Below are positions 3,771 through 25,788 of a stretch of DNA of 29,868 nucleotides, piece by piece. The stretch comes from a virus, in the IMG/VR virus record IMGVR_UViG_3300018080_000455, positions 1-29,868 of that record. One strand, 5' to 3'. The translations under genes were made by a program, and so were the position numbers. The notes below the pieces were generated by a model. That model saw nothing but the letters and a program-made list of their open reading frames with translations, did not search any database and had not been told where the DNA came from. Position 1 is the first letter of the stretch. Each line of letters starts with the position of its first letter.

Positions 3771-4244
3771 ATGACAATCGATCAAGAAATAATGAAAATT
3801 ATGCGCGATACAGCAACTCCAATCATGTATCATCCAGATGATGATAAACCAACAGAAATCACACGTGACGATATTGATCGCTGTATAGAAGACTGTATAG
3901 GCAGGTGGAATCACGGTTATTTTGATCACAAGTTATTAGAACGAAATATACCTCCTTTACTTAAAGAGAGGCACATGGAGGCTATTGGTGGCAGAACGCT
4001 GCGTTTTAGACGTTATGAACCACTTGATACAGTTGCGGTGCCTTTAGGTGACGGATATCCAGGACGCCAACAACTTAGAGGTGTTGATGTTGAACTTTCA
4101 GACCTTGCAGGTGTTAATGATGAATTATTAGGACCGGCCCTGTCGTCTAGTGGTCAGGACACTGCTTTTTCAAGGCAGGAACAGCGGGTTCAATTCCCCT
4201 CAGGGTCACCAGGATTTACAGAAAAACTAATGGATCCTCGGTAG
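3771..4244 (+). CDS. chimeric capsid/portal-like remnant, possible pseudogene
   Basis: The open frame encodes 157 residues, but its parts look borrowed. Residues about 52-102 (FDHKLLERNIPP, GGRTLRFRRYEPLDTVAVPLG, GVDVE) resemble residues 17-85 of the window's own major capsid protein (FSYKLL, GGTTLRMRRYNALDTAMVPLG, AVDIDA), including the RRYxxLDT motif of N4-gp56 capsids. Residues about 112-123 (LAGVNDELLGPAL) resemble the portal ISGVNEELLGSAI. The last 35 or so codons coincide with the tRNA-Glu gene, so they are unlikely to have evolved as protein. The ribosome binding site is weak. I infer a recombination remnant of virion genes from a related phage, cut by the tRNA cassette. A small genuine protein made of residues 1-120 cannot be excluded. 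Confidence 0.5.
   Translation: MTIDQEIMKIMRDTATPIMYHPDDDKPTEITRDDIDRCIEDCIGRWNHGYFDHKLLERNIPPLLKERHMEAIGGRTLRFRRYEPLDTVAVPLGDGYPGRQQLRGVDVELSDLAGVNDELLGPALSSSGQDTAFSRQEQRVQFPSGSPGFTEKLMDPR
4136..4211 (+). tRNA. tRNA-Glu(TTC)
   Basis: The acceptor stem GGCCCTG/CAGGGTC pairs with one G:T, followed by ACCA, so CCA is encoded. The anticodon stem CTGCT/GGCAG carries loop TTTTCAA with anticodon TTC at 4169-4171. The T loop is TTCAATT. The T stem (GCGGG/CCCCT) has one C:C mismatch and a terminal G:T. The GTCTAGTGGTCAGGAC D arm matches bacterial tRNA-Glu. It is the first member of a two-tRNA cassette. Confidence 0.9.
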
Positions 4245-4310
4245 CTCAGTTGGCAGAGCACACGGCTGATAACTGTGAGGTCGCAGGTTCAATTCCTGCC
4301 CGAGGGACCA
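4235..4310 (+). tRNA. tRNA-Ile(GAT)
   Basis: The acceptor TCCTCGG/CCGAGGG is fully paired with a terminal T:G, followed by discriminator A and encoded CCA. The D arm is GCTC/GAGC, the anticodon stem CACGG/CTGTG has loop CTGATAA (anticodon GAT, 4268-4270), and the T arm is GCAGG/CCTGC around TTCAATT. It lies 23 bases after tRNA-Glu and is followed by a terminator, so the two are probably co-transcribed. Confidence 0.95.
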
Positions 4311-6995: not shown

Positions 6996-7031
6996 TCCCC
7001 TGGTTTTTCACTTTTTCCCAGGGGACTTTTT
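6996..7031 (+). terminator. intrinsic terminator after scaffold gene
   Basis: TCCCCTGG (6996-7003) pairs with CCAGGGGA (7018-7025), followed by CTTTTT. It separates scaffold from capsid transcription, or attenuates read-through. Confidence 0.85.
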
Positions 7032-7034
7032 ATA

Positions 7035-7063
7035 TTGATGTCTACAATTCACGGTTGTAATAT
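7035..7063 (+). promoter_or_regulatory. promoter for major capsid gene
   Basis: TTGATG (7035-7040) and TAATAT (7058-7063) are spaced by 17 bases and sit just after the terminator. The predicted start, near 7070, coincides with the first unit of the triple repeat, so the capsid mRNA would begin with these repeats. The spacer contains CTACAATTC, also found after the terminator at 18243. Confidence 0.55.
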
Positions 7064-7069
7064 AAAATT

Positions 7070-7149
7070 GGCTGTACGGGAATCGCCACCCCATCGAGCT
7101 GTACGGGCATCGCTCACCCAACTTTAGGCTGTAGGGAATCGCCTCCCCA
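7070..7149 (+). repeat. triple 23-24 nt repeat in capsid leader
   Basis: Three imperfect copies start at 7070, 7098 and 7127 (spacing 28-29). The consensus begins GGCTGTACGGGAATCGCC and ends CCCCA. Each has a GGG block and a CCC block that can form a small hairpin. They lie 44 bases upstream of the capsid ATG. No other copies were noticed in the window. Confidence 0.75.
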
Positions 7150-7192
7150 AAGAGTAATGTAAGTATTTTAAAAAATTAGGTAAGGGGAAACT

Positions 7193-8140
7193 ATGCCTAT
7201 CACAACTACAACCGTGCTTCCAGCACCGGTACAACAAAGCTTTAGTTATAAGCTATTGTCAGTTCCTGTTCCTTCCATGATTCATAAAATACCTGCAATG
7301 AAGAAGAGAATGCCTGCTAAAGGTGGTACAACCTTACGTATGAGGCGTTATAATGCGCTTGATACAGCTATGGTTCCACTTGGCAATACAGGCGTCACTC
7401 CTCCAGCACAGGTATTGACTGCTGTGGATATCGATGCAAGAATCGATTTTTATGGAACATATGTACAACTTAACGAACAAGTAACACTGCAAAACCAAGA
7501 TCCTGTTTTGAACGAAGCAGCTGCTCGTCTTGGTGTCTCTCTACGTCAAACTGAAGATCAACTTACACGTGACATGTTGGCGGCAACCGCTGGCTTCATT
7601 AACTGTGTGGGTGGGGTAAACGGAGATAATCCTACTGAAATAACCCTCACAGACGTACAAGACACAGTTCGAACCCTTCTAAACAACGATGCATACACCA
7701 TATTGGACAACCTAGAGGGCGAGGATAAATTTGGAACAGCGCCTGTACGCGACGCTTTCTTCGCGCTTGCTTCTACGCAATTGACAGGTGATCTTGATGC
7801 AACTGCTGGATTTATTCACAAGAACCAATATCCATCACCAATGAACGCGCTCAGAACTGAGTGGGGTTCTATTGGTAACTTGAGGTTCTTGGTATCTTCC
7901 ATTGGTTCCTTCAATGCAAATGCATCTAACCTCGGATCAGATGTTTATAACATCTTCTGCGTAGGTATGGAAGCGTATGCGTGTATTGAGCAAGATCAGT
8001 ATAGTGCTTCATTTATTTATAGACCACCTATATATGATGGACCATTGGCGCTTAATGCATCCGTTGGTTATAAGTTTGCAGAAGTTCCAAGGATTACTAA
8101 TGATCTTTGGGTTATTAACCTACGTGCAACCCGCGCTTAA
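7193..8140 (+). CDS. major capsid protein, N4-gp56 family
   Basis: This 315-residue protein has the N4-gp56/HK97-fold pattern: an N-terminal arm, then a GGTTLRMRRYNALDTAMVPLG segment near residues 43-63 (E-loop region, RRYxxLDT hallmark), GVTPPAQVLTAVDID, and YGTYVQLNEQVTLQNQDPVL leading into the spine helix with LTRDMLAATAGF. The C-terminal half contains FIHKNQYPSPMNALRTEWGSIGNLRFLVSS, typical of this family. It forms the icosahedral shell. AAGGGG precedes the ATG. It has its own promoter and leader. A diverged fragment of the same family lies at 3771. Confidence 0.93.
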   Translation: MPITTTTVLPAPVQQSFSYKLLSVPVPSMIHKIPAMKKRMPAKGGTTLRMRRYNALDTAMVPLGNTGVTPPAQVLTAVDIDARIDFYGTYVQLNEQVTLQNQDPVLNEAAARLGVSLRQTEDQLTRDMLAATAGFINCVGGVNGDNPTEITLTDVQDTVRTLLNNDAYTILDNLEGEDKFGTAPVRDAFFALASTQLTGDLDATAGFIHKNQYPSPMNALRTEWGSIGNLRFLVSSIGSFNANASNLGSDVYNIFCVGMEAYACIEQDQYSASFIYRPPIYDGPLALNASVGYKFAEVPRITNDLWVINLRATRA

Positions 8141-22948: not shown

Positions 22949-24367
22949 ATGGCTAACAGGAAAGATTCAAGGTTAACTGGACTTAATCCGTTAGCCTATA
23001 TGGGAGTAGAGCCGACTGCTCCATCATTATTCTTTTCGGCACAAAGAGAACCAACTACCAATGATTATGCTGGATACAATATTGGAACTATTTGGCTAGA
23101 TCGATCTGGTGGAGTTAATGGGAAGCTTTGGACGTTGGTTAAAAAAGATGATGCAATTGCTACATGGATACAGATAGGGTCTGGAGATGGTATCGAAACT
23201 ATCACTCCTGACGCTGGTATTCTTGTTCTTCCTGACGGAGTTGGAAACGTTAATGTGCTTGGTGGAACCAATTTGCAGACAGTAGGAACGGCAAATACAT
23301 TAACCATTAATATCGCGTTAGACACTATTGCTGATACGTATCAAACAGATGCAGGAAACGCTCAGCCAGCTCTTGGGATATTGAAAGTGTTGGGGGGAAC
23401 CAATATGGGAACCACTGGTGCAGGCAATATTGTAACGATCAACGTTGTACCTGATACCATAGCGGATACTTATGTCGCTGATGTGGGAAGTGCTACACCT
23501 GTCGCAGGCACAATAAACGTTTTAGGAGGTGCTGGGGTTACCACAACAGGATTGGGAAATACCGTAACTATATCTGCTGATGCTGCTATCGAAAGAATTA
23601 TAACGGACGCAGGAACCGCTATTCCTGTTGCAGGGGTTATAAACCTCCTAGGGGGTCGGAATATAGGGACCTCGGCTGTTGGTAATACTATCACAGTGGA
23701 TACTGATGATCCTGGTGAAGGTGTAGTTCAAAGTAGTGCAGCTGGAATATTTTCGGCTTCAAAGGGTGACGACGGAGAGCTCCTAATTGGAGCGACCGGG
23801 GGTACACCAGCCTGGAACACCTTGACTGCTGGTCCAGGTGTTACGATTGTTAATGGCCCTAACTCTATACAAATATCTGCTTCTGGTATTGCACCAACTG
23901 CTACATCTAACTTTAAAGCGTATCTAAATGCTTCTGTGTTTAATGTAACGGGTGACGGAACCGTGTACTCCATACCATTCGATCAAGAGTTTTTTGATGT
24001 TGCTGGAGAGTTTGATACGACAACGGGGAAATTTACTGCAGCCGCTAAGGGGGTATATTGCTTTATAGCCAACATTCTCTGTGAGGATACAGATCTTGGA
24101 CACGATACAGCTCAAACAAAGGTGCAAATAACAGGAACATACAACCAGACAAATGCGCAAAACAACTTCGACCCCACTCCAATTGTTGATAACATTGATC
24201 AGTATACATTTGTTATCTCTACTACAACGAGACTTGACGCAGGAGATACGGCTGAGCTAACTCTAGAGATTTCTGGTGGATCAAAGAACGTTGATATAAT
24301 TGCAACGGGTGGCGTAGGAGATATTCGTACCTGGTTTGGCGGCTTCTTGCTAGCTACATTACCGTAG
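22949..24367 (+). CDS. repeat-shaft fibre with C1q-like head, copy 1
   Basis: The N-terminal module of this 472-residue protein (TGLNPLAYMGVEP, YNIGTIWLDRSGGVNGKLWTLV, ATWIQIGSG) is probably the attachment end, shared with 24376 and partly with 17181. Four shaft repeats of about 44 residues follow, of the form Y-x-TDAGxAxPAxGxLxVLGGxNxxTxGxGNxVTI. A linker (GEGVVQSSAAGIFSASKGDDGELLIGATGGTPAW) leads into a C1q-like head from residue 319 to the end (NVTGDGTVYSIPFDQEFFDV, GKFTAAAKGVYCFI, LDAGDTAELTLEISGGSKNVDII). Confidence 0.8.
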   Translation: MANRKDSRLTGLNPLAYMGVEPTAPSLFFSAQREPTTNDYAGYNIGTIWLDRSGGVNGKLWTLVKKDDAIATWIQIGSGDGIETITPDAGILVLPDGVGNVNVLGGTNLQTVGTANTLTINIALDTIADTYQTDAGNAQPALGILKVLGGTNMGTTGAGNIVTINVVPDTIADTYVADVGSATPVAGTINVLGGAGVTTTGLGNTVTISADAAIERIITDAGTAIPVAGVINLLGGRNIGTSAVGNTITVDTDDPGEGVVQSSAAGIFSASKGDDGELLIGATGGTPAWNTLTAGPGVTIVNGPNSIQISASGIAPTATSNFKAYLNASVFNVTGDGTVYSIPFDQEFFDVAGEFDTTTGKFTAAAKGVYCFIANILCEDTDLGHDTAQTKVQITGTYNQTNAQNNFDPTPIVDNIDQYTFVISTTTRLDAGDTAELTLEISGGSKNVDIIATGGVGDIRTWFGGFLLATLP

Positions 24368-24375
24368 GAGGTGGC

Positions 24376-25788
24376 ATGGCTGAAAAAAAGACTAATAAAC
24401 GAACTGGCTTGCATCCATTTGCATATATGGGCGTTGAGCCTATTGCAACATATAACGTGCTGTCTATGGATAGGCCTCCCACCATTGATGACTATAGAGG
24501 ATATAACATAGGTGATCGCTGGCTAGATAGGTCGGCACCTCCTGATGGTAGGCTCTATGTTTTAATTCATAAAAATAATAACGTAGCGACATGGGTCAAG
24601 GTGACGACGCCTGAAGTAGTGAGCATTACCCCTGATGTTGGAATCTTAGTAGTTTCAGATGGGGCGTTTAACGTTAATATTGTTGGGGGACCAGGTATAA
24701 CTACCACTGGAACACTTAACACCCTAACAGTTGATATATCTTCCGGAACCATAGCTGAAACCTTTGAAACTGACGCTGGAAATGCTACACCAGCAGGTGG
24801 CGTACTTCAAGTATTAGGGGGACAAGACGCGGCAACTACAGGCGCGAGCAATATCGTTACAGTAAACTTTGATCCTGACTCTGTAGCTGATACATATCAA
24901 ACAGACTCAGGCGTAGCAACCCCGGCTCTTGGCGTAATAAACATGCTGGGAGGAGTAGGAGGGGGAACTTCTGCTGCTGGAAACACAGTAACTGTAACAG
25001 GTATAGTATTAGATATAGATCAGGTTATCACAGACTCTGGAGCTGCAGTAGCTGTGGGTGGAGATCTTAATGTTTTTGGGGGTCGAAACATAACAACTTC
25101 AGCTTCGGGTAATAGTGTCACTATAGACATGGATGACCCGGGCGAAGGTGTGGTGTTTAGTGACTCCACAGGTCTGTTTTCCGCTTCAAAAGGGGATGAC
25201 GGTGAGCTTATAATAGGTGCAACAGCGGCTTCACCAGCCTGGGCAAATCTGACTGAGGGTGCCGATGTAACCATTACTAATATTGCTAATCAGATAGAAA
25301 TAGCGTCGACAGGAGGGGGCGCGCCGACTGCATTCTCAAATTTTAAAGCCTACTTAACGGCTAACCTTCCAAATGTAACGGGGGGCGGGGTCCAGTATAC
25401 AATTCCTTTTGACGCAACGCTATGGGATCTTAATGGAGACGTAGACACGCTTACGGGAAAATTTGTTGCCCCTGCTGACGGAATATATTGTTTTCTTTGT
25501 CAGGTGTGGTTGCATGAGATAATTGGAGATAACACTGATTCTCGTATTATATGTACTGGAATATATGCGCAAGACAATGCTTCTGTTAATGTAAACTTAT
25601 TTAATATTAGTACTGGGCCTAACAGAGAGGTAACTGCAATAACAAACACTACTCAAAGGCTGGAGATAGGCGATACGGCAGAGTTTAACTTTACCGCCTC
25701 TGGAGGCTTTAACCGTGTTGATATTTTGTCTGGCTCAGGAAACACGATAAAAACCTGGTTTACAGGGTTCTTGTTAGCTTATCTATAA
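24376..25788 (+). CDS. repeat-shaft fibre with C1q-like head, copy 2
   Basis: This 470-residue protein has the architecture of copy 1: attachment module (TGLHPFAYMGVEP, YNIGDRWLDRSAPPDGRLYVLI), four shaft repeats (TDAGNATPAGGVLQVLGGQDAATTGASNIVTV and alike), linker (GEGVVFSDSTGLFSASKGDDGELIIGATAASPAW) and C1q-like head from residue 320 (NVTGGGVQYTIPFDATLWDL, GKFVAPADGIYCFL, LEIGDTAEFNFTASGG). It is the last gene of the plus-strand operon and ends near a hairpin shared with the minus operon. Copies 1 and 2 could be alternative receptor-binding proteins or form heteromeric fibres. Confidence 0.8.
   Translation: MAEKKTNKRTGLHPFAYMGVEPIATYNVLSMDRPPTIDDYRGYNIGDRWLDRSAPPDGRLYVLIHKNNNVATWVKVTTPEVVSITPDVGILVVSDGAFNVNIVGGPGITTTGTLNTLTVDISSGTIAETFETDAGNATPAGGVLQVLGGQDAATTGASNIVTVNFDPDSVADTYQTDSGVATPALGVINMLGGVGGGTSAAGNTVTVTGIVLDIDQVITDSGAAVAVGGDLNVFGGRNITTSASGNSVTIDMDDPGEGVVFSDSTGLFSASKGDDGELIIGATAASPAWANLTEGADVTITNIANQIEIASTGGGAPTAFSNFKAYLTANLPNVTGGGVQYTIPFDATLWDLNGDVDTLTGKFVAPADGIYCFLCQVWLHEIIGDNTDSRIICTGIYAQDNASVNVNLFNISTGPNREVTAITNTTQRLEIGDTAEFNFTASGGFNRVDILSGSGNTIKTWFTGFLLAYL

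Follow-up and report, generated by a model that had tools for sequence, protein, structure and literature searches.

The DNA analyzed here, referred to below as the window, is a viral record of 29,868 bases that encodes a P22-like portal protein. We found no DNA similarity of the window to cultured phages, whose closest capsids share only about 26% identity. A sequence-only reading of this DNA had called a capsid gene, and the call holds, with matches to PHROG 1357 (major head protein, E = 1.8e-30) and Pfam Phage_capsid_4. The same reading described three copies of an approximately 23-nt repeat, each with GGG and CCC blocks, in front of that gene, and the repeat is indeed present at 7070-7148. 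Its copies lie at 7071-7093, 7098-7120, and 7127-7149, the second and third being 83% and 70% identical to the first; both blocks occur in every copy, and 44 nt separate the end of the last copy from the capsid ATG at 7193. The window holds no second array of three units. The features of the region are given in Table 1.

Table 1. Features at the capsid leader of the window
Feature	Position	Strand	Details
Intrinsic terminator, upstream transcript	6996..7033	+	TCCCCTGG-14 nt-CCAGGGGA then CTTTTTAT
-35 box TTGATG	7035..7040	+	Read from sequence; 17 nt before -10
-10 box TAATAT	7058..7063	+	Predicted +1 ~7070; relatives' -10-like hexamers peak 5-7 nt before first stem
Pseudoknot unit 1 (candidate)	7070..7092	+	S1 GGC 7070-7072 / GCC 7085-7087; S2 GGG 7078-7080 / CCC within 7089-7092; covariation in relatives
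Pseudoknot unit 2 (candidate)	7096..7119	+	S1 GAGC 7096-7099 / GCUC 7112-7115; S2 GGG 7105-7107 / CCC 7117-7119
Pseudoknot unit 3 (candidate)	7126..7148	+	S1 (A)GGC 7126-7129 / GCC(U) 7141-7144; S2 GGG(A) 7134-7137 / (U)CCC(C) 7144-7148; exact register ambiguous
UCCCC, S2 3′ strand of last unit	7144..7148	+	Complementary to SD GGGGA 7184-7188; possible alternative pairing
Capsid Shine-Dalgarno (SD) AAGGGGA	7182..7188	+	Read from sequence
Major capsid protein gene, 315 aa	7193..8140	+	PHROG 1357 major head protein, Pfam Phage_capsid_4

The repeat itself was thus seen in the sequence-only reading; that its units can be drawn as pseudoknots linked to the SD sequence had gone unnoticed. Each unit of about 24 nt can fold as an H-type RNA pseudoknot in which stem S1 is interleaved with stem S2, the strands following the order S1 5′, S2 5′, S1 3′, S2 3′. 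In the window, S1 is GGC/GCC or GAGC/GCUC and S2 is GGG/CCC, and unit 2 differs from unit 1 by an S1 altered on both sides (GGC/GCC to AGC/GCU). The consensus of the unit is RRCG-UA-n-S2-nnU-CGYY-A-S2′. Nested-only folding of the window leader revealed no unusual structure, the leader being less stable than its shuffles (z = +1.4), and a nested structure was dropped since shuffles fold better. Because the nested-only fold shows nothing, ordinary folding tools miss the units, which is a caution that nested folding programs are blind to a pseudoknot array.

A capsid search of viral contigs yielded at least 597 stretches encoding a relative, and the best 80 of these at least 597 were kept. Further scans added a capsid clade at about 62% identity, and a third clade was reached via a capsid 49% identical to that of the window. 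Nearly all of the more than 90 divergent leaders from the three capsid clades (about 48-97% amino acid identity) carry units, mostly 2-4 per leader with a range of 1 to 8; relatives thus have the repeats, whose absence from close relatives with normal capsid expression would have counted against the earlier reading. Our scanner detected units in 91 of 95 thinned leaders, three being the commonest number, and variant units are visible by eye in several of the four leaders it missed. The letters of the units vary widely, as in GGCG-UAUC-GAGC-CU-CGCC-A-GCUC, GACG-UAUU-AAGC-CU-CGUC-A-GCUU, GACC-CAAUC-GAG-CCU-GGUC-CC-CUC, and GGC-UGUAUC-GCCC-CAUC-GCC-A-GGGC. Cultured phages with distant capsids have no such leader, the capsid gene following directly after the previous open reading frame (ORF).

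Several other observations were made on these relatives. In the leaders of some third-clade members (L273 and L284; 180 nt upstream of the capsid gene), the tandem repeat is a different one (GGTTGC...GGACATAGGGAGTCTTAAAAATCCTAG); it resembles a pseudoknot of more classic form, whose third loop is long and A-rich, and possibly replaces the same device. In many relatives (L086, L258, L261, L263, L267, L269, and L271), the capsid match is interrupted at several different positions of the gene, and judged by eye from the sequence (e.g., L086, about 180 onward) the inserts look like group I introns. Four genome contigs encoding relatives were binned to unrelated phyla; these assignments are probably binning errors and were not used as a clue to the host.

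The earlier reading had proposed a covariation search in related capsid leaders, and in this search both stems proved to be kept by compensatory changes. For an unbiased selection, units were picked only by the motif NNCG[T/C]A...TCGNN, ignoring pairing. Of 210 units picked in this way, 172 have the outer pairs of S1 (shuffle mean 83, maximum 99), 158 have the S2 core (shuffle mean 48, maximum 64), and 133 have both stems together; in a smaller set (n = 122), slid partners paired at most 18 and 24 times. Standard pairs fill 93.1% of the cells of alignment A2, which consists of 74 equal-length, ungapped units likewise chosen with no regard to pairing, versus 77.0% in shuffled and 29.7-51.2% in slid versions. 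Two-sided changes number 91 versus 26 and the covariation is 0.517 versus 0.211, such changes being present in the outer S1 pairs and in all S2 core pairs. Conversely, a pairing-only search with no letters fixed found 160 units versus 1-13 in ten shuffles, and the consensus RRCG-UA...U-CGYY-A emerged from it unasked. When S1 strands that differ within one leader were combined between units, only 40 of 220 combinations paired, so the pairing is within units. The strand is not fixed by the counts of G.U versus A.C (20 versus 16), and it was assigned from the promoter, the gene direction, and the SD link. The order S1-S2-S1′-S2′ that places a fold in the H-type class is found in the units, and the two-sided changes support both stems in this crossed order. 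The capsid leader almost certainly contains a conserved RNA element, and the plus-strand RNA would be expected to fold into the array in cells.

The loops of the units are the reverse of classic H-type geometry, in which a short L1 crosses S2 and a longer L3 crosses S1 (a typical rather than a strictly defining trait): here L1, measured to the S2 core, is mostly 3-7 nt and L3 is 1-2 nt. Some units have an additional hairpin in L1 (e.g., L185). These reversed proportions are the chief structural doubt, and both stems may not form fully at once. An L3 of this length is short for spanning S1, and single stems are weak (-1.3 to -3.1 kcal/mol), as would suit two mutually exclusive hairpins per unit, making the leader a multicopy bistable switch without pseudoknots. 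We regard this alternative as improbable, since the 133 units keep both stems with tight loop lengths, and hairpins that never coexist need no fixed linkers of 1-2 nt and 2-3 nt.

The copies stand head to tail, and L271:4589-4756 contains seven near-identical head-to-tail 24-bp units plus an eighth. This array is a recent expansion, a natural copy-number variant, and it shows that units multiply by duplication. Such multiplication would be compatible with a repeat acting at the DNA level (protein-binding iterons or a recombination or packaging site) or with neutral slippage, either of them without an RNA role. In most leaders, however, the letters differ among units while the interleaved pairing is kept, and the array always lies on the coding strand, starting at the +1 of one gene; we therefore give this explanation hardly any credence.

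The array had been placed at the predicted transcription start by the sequence-only reading. The spacing of the two promoter hexamers agrees with this placing, as it puts the +1 at about 7070, which is the first G of the first GGC, 6 nt after TAATAT. The predicted promoter thus lies upstream of 7070, instead of transcription starting downstream of 7150, a case in which that reading would have been abandoned. The predicted +1 of the window is supported by the same spacing in most relatives: of 74 leaders in which a clear box was seen, 52 have a -10-like box ending 5-7 nt ahead of the first base of S1, so that transcription should begin on the first base pair or beside it. Pairing would then begin within a few nucleotides of the predicted +1, as in 5′-terminal stabilizing structures. 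A terminator-like hairpin is found ahead of the leader in 40 of 92 relatives, versus 2% of shuffles. The capsid mRNA is thus likely to be a transcript of its own, made from its own sigma70-type promoter.

The array also appears to be confined to this position. In the window and six near-complete contigs, clusters of at least three units were found once per genome, only in capsid leaders and on the coding strand, and matches to a pattern of one unit class in 28 contigs fell mostly in the capsid leader. A degenerate unit pattern gave 14 matches in 2.9 million viral contigs, all directly upstream of this capsid family. A second degenerate motif scan found no locus, as expected given the sequence variability.

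An array that starts right at the +1 of a late operon could also act as a nascent-RNA antiterminator or antipausing element, binding RNA polymerase after initiation and letting it read through the structural operon as HK022 put does; putL likewise lies just downstream of a promoter and works as folded RNA (PMC9378689). We consider this quite improbable. The putRNA folds into a single 73-nt V made of two stem-loops and has no repeat array, the unit copy number varies from 1 to 8, and the window has no clear terminator directly after the capsid gene.

The last unit shows a further relationship, to the SD sequence. Within clade A, the last unit often has an S2 3′ strand that runs on into sequence complementary to the SD region, e.g., GCUUAAG...CUUAAGGA, CUUGAA...UUCAAGG, and CUUAAAG...CUUUAAGG. 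Counting stems that involve the S2 strand and score at least 15, we found strong stems with the leader's own SD region in 21 of 58 clade-A cases, versus a mean of 3.7 (maximum 9) with foreign SD regions, and in 2 of 117 cases for units other than the last. Since one strand serves S2 and the SD stem, the last pseudoknot and the SD-blocking stem would compete. Several clade-A groups (L042, L046, L068, and L075) show the link weakly or not at all, and it was unsupported in clade B in the comparison of own with foreign SD regions. In the final 35 nt before the capsid ATG, the clade-B leaders L168-L190 share a conserved TATGTACGTTTGTACTTTAGGAGTGTGTGT around the ribosome site, a region that is variable in clade A.

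We propose that the array works as a 5′-terminal armor that stabilizes the capsid mRNA, with the last knot holding the ribosome site open in part of the family, a reading that we place just short of probable. The capsid mRNA would open, at the +1 or within 1-2 nt of it, with small H-type pseudoknots arrayed in tandem, and S1 of unit 1 would take up the 5′-terminal nucleotides, leaving no single-stranded 5′ end. RppH and RNase E require single-stranded 5′ ends, and 5′ structures stabilize mRNA (PMC3997798). The hidden end would be denied to the pyrophosphohydrolase and to the 5′-end-dependent nuclease (RppH/RNase E or RNase J type), giving a long-lived, highly translated capsid message, and additional units would add stability and redundancy. 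In part of the family, S2 of the last pseudoknot would trap a CUU or UCCCC strand otherwise able to pair with the SD sequence; fast cotranscriptional folding of the array would keep the ribosome site accessible, and its unfolding would block that site. The observations, all made on sequence, are the units, their covariation, position, and exclusivity, and the alternative SD pairing; protection of the 5′ end and the direction in which translation would change are inferred. Against armor, a single stem would be enough to protect the 5′ end, and 3-8 units are more than this purpose calls for. RNA stabilization had been one of the roles offered by the earlier reading, and among the functions it appears to be the one best supported by the anatomy.

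The main rival concerns the unpaired letters of the unit, which are strongly conserved: among the 160 pairing-only units, 142 have the A in L1, 146 the U before CGYY, and 119 the A after S1. The A...U is almost invariant and so gives no covariation for or against its reading as a base pair. A protein bound to the unit could account for the conserved unpaired UA...U and A. Modeled on gp32 at the T4 gene 32 leader pseudoknot, the array would be an autoregulatory operator whose knots bind a phage protein (capsid, scaffold, or other), counting that protein and repressing capsid translation when it is in excess. The conserved letters could then be contacts, the copy number of units would permit cooperative binding, the SD-coupled last unit offers a readout, and the distance to the start codon, some 40-120 nt, is reminiscent of T4 gene 32 (PMC3014915). 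The letters of S1 and S2 are nevertheless very free, structure explains the conserved A...U equally well, and capsid proteins of distant relatives exist without any leader. We consider autoregulation unlikely.

No described element matched the array. A search of Rfam with the window and the leader gave no match to the leader at the gathering threshold and matches of chance level only at E values up to 10, and no tandem pseudoknots in phage capsid leaders were found in the literature (open-licence papers searched), in agreement with the sequence-only reading, which knew of no counterpart. Its suggestion that the capsid leader contains an RNA element not described before is well supported by the compensatory changes, the start at the +1, and the restriction to capsid leaders, together with this lack of an Rfam match. 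Like the capsid leaders, the gene 32 leader of T4, T2, and RB69 is a phage mRNA leader with an H-type pseudoknot ahead of its ribosome site, and gene 32 mRNA is unusually stable (PMC3014915). That leader, however, has a single knot bound by the single-strand binding protein and precedes a replication gene, whereas the capsid arrays have 2-8 tandem knots at the +1, with other sequence and loop geometry, and the gene downstream encodes the major capsid protein instead of a single-strand DNA-binding protein. The rpsO/S15 leaders likewise use a leader pseudoknot near the ribosome site for control (PMC3014915), but with a single knot, a bacterial gene, and a known protein ligand. HK022 put is also folded nascent RNA just after a phage promoter; it serves early operons, and its one V-shaped fold of two stem-loops has no repeat array (PMC9378689). 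That 73-nt fold binds the beta′ zinc domain of RNA polymerase, whereas the array consists of repeated 24-nt crossed stems. The 5′ stem-loops of the ompA/papA type share a structure at the extreme 5′ end, but they are single nested hairpins, whereas the array has pseudoknots with conserved internal letters. The upstream pseudoknot domain of tobacco mosaic virus RNA likewise has several small pseudoknots in a row that act in cis on a viral mRNA, but at the 3′ end of a plant RNA virus, and it is unrelated to the array by sequence, place, and host. The array perhaps works like 5′ stabilizing hairpins, and it seems to fall outside the families compared (no Rfam match, not gene 32, not put).

Our broader proposal is an undescribed RNA family in nearly all of a large uncultured podovirus-like lineage, in which the pseudoknot array at the +1 would serve as a DNA-phage "cap," armoring the message and holding the SD sequence open via the last knot; we advance it tentatively, as possible rather than probable. 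If true, structured leader RNAs would gain a new class, one that occurs in hundreds of genomes of environmental phages and belongs to the gene for their most abundant protein, and a DNA phage may raise capsid dosage by RNA structure, beyond promoters alone. According to a 2010 T4 review, gene 32 is perhaps the only viral pseudoknot in translational autoregulation (PMC3014915); in contrast to that single case, the arrays here would hold up to eight pseudoknots. The unit would also be a compact natural part (24 nt, repeatable) and a candidate mRNA stabilizer, and its freely varying letters are a rich covariation set for RNA modeling.

Two further features of the window were recorded. Neighboring ORFs at 22949-24367 (472 aa) and 24376-25788 (470 aa) each have a C1q-like domain near the C terminus and are probably tail fibers. 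The window also contains tRNA genes at 50-124, 4136-4211, and 4235-4310, with Ile(GAT) occurring twice beside Glu(TTC), and two tRNA-Ile(GAT) genes in one phage are odd.
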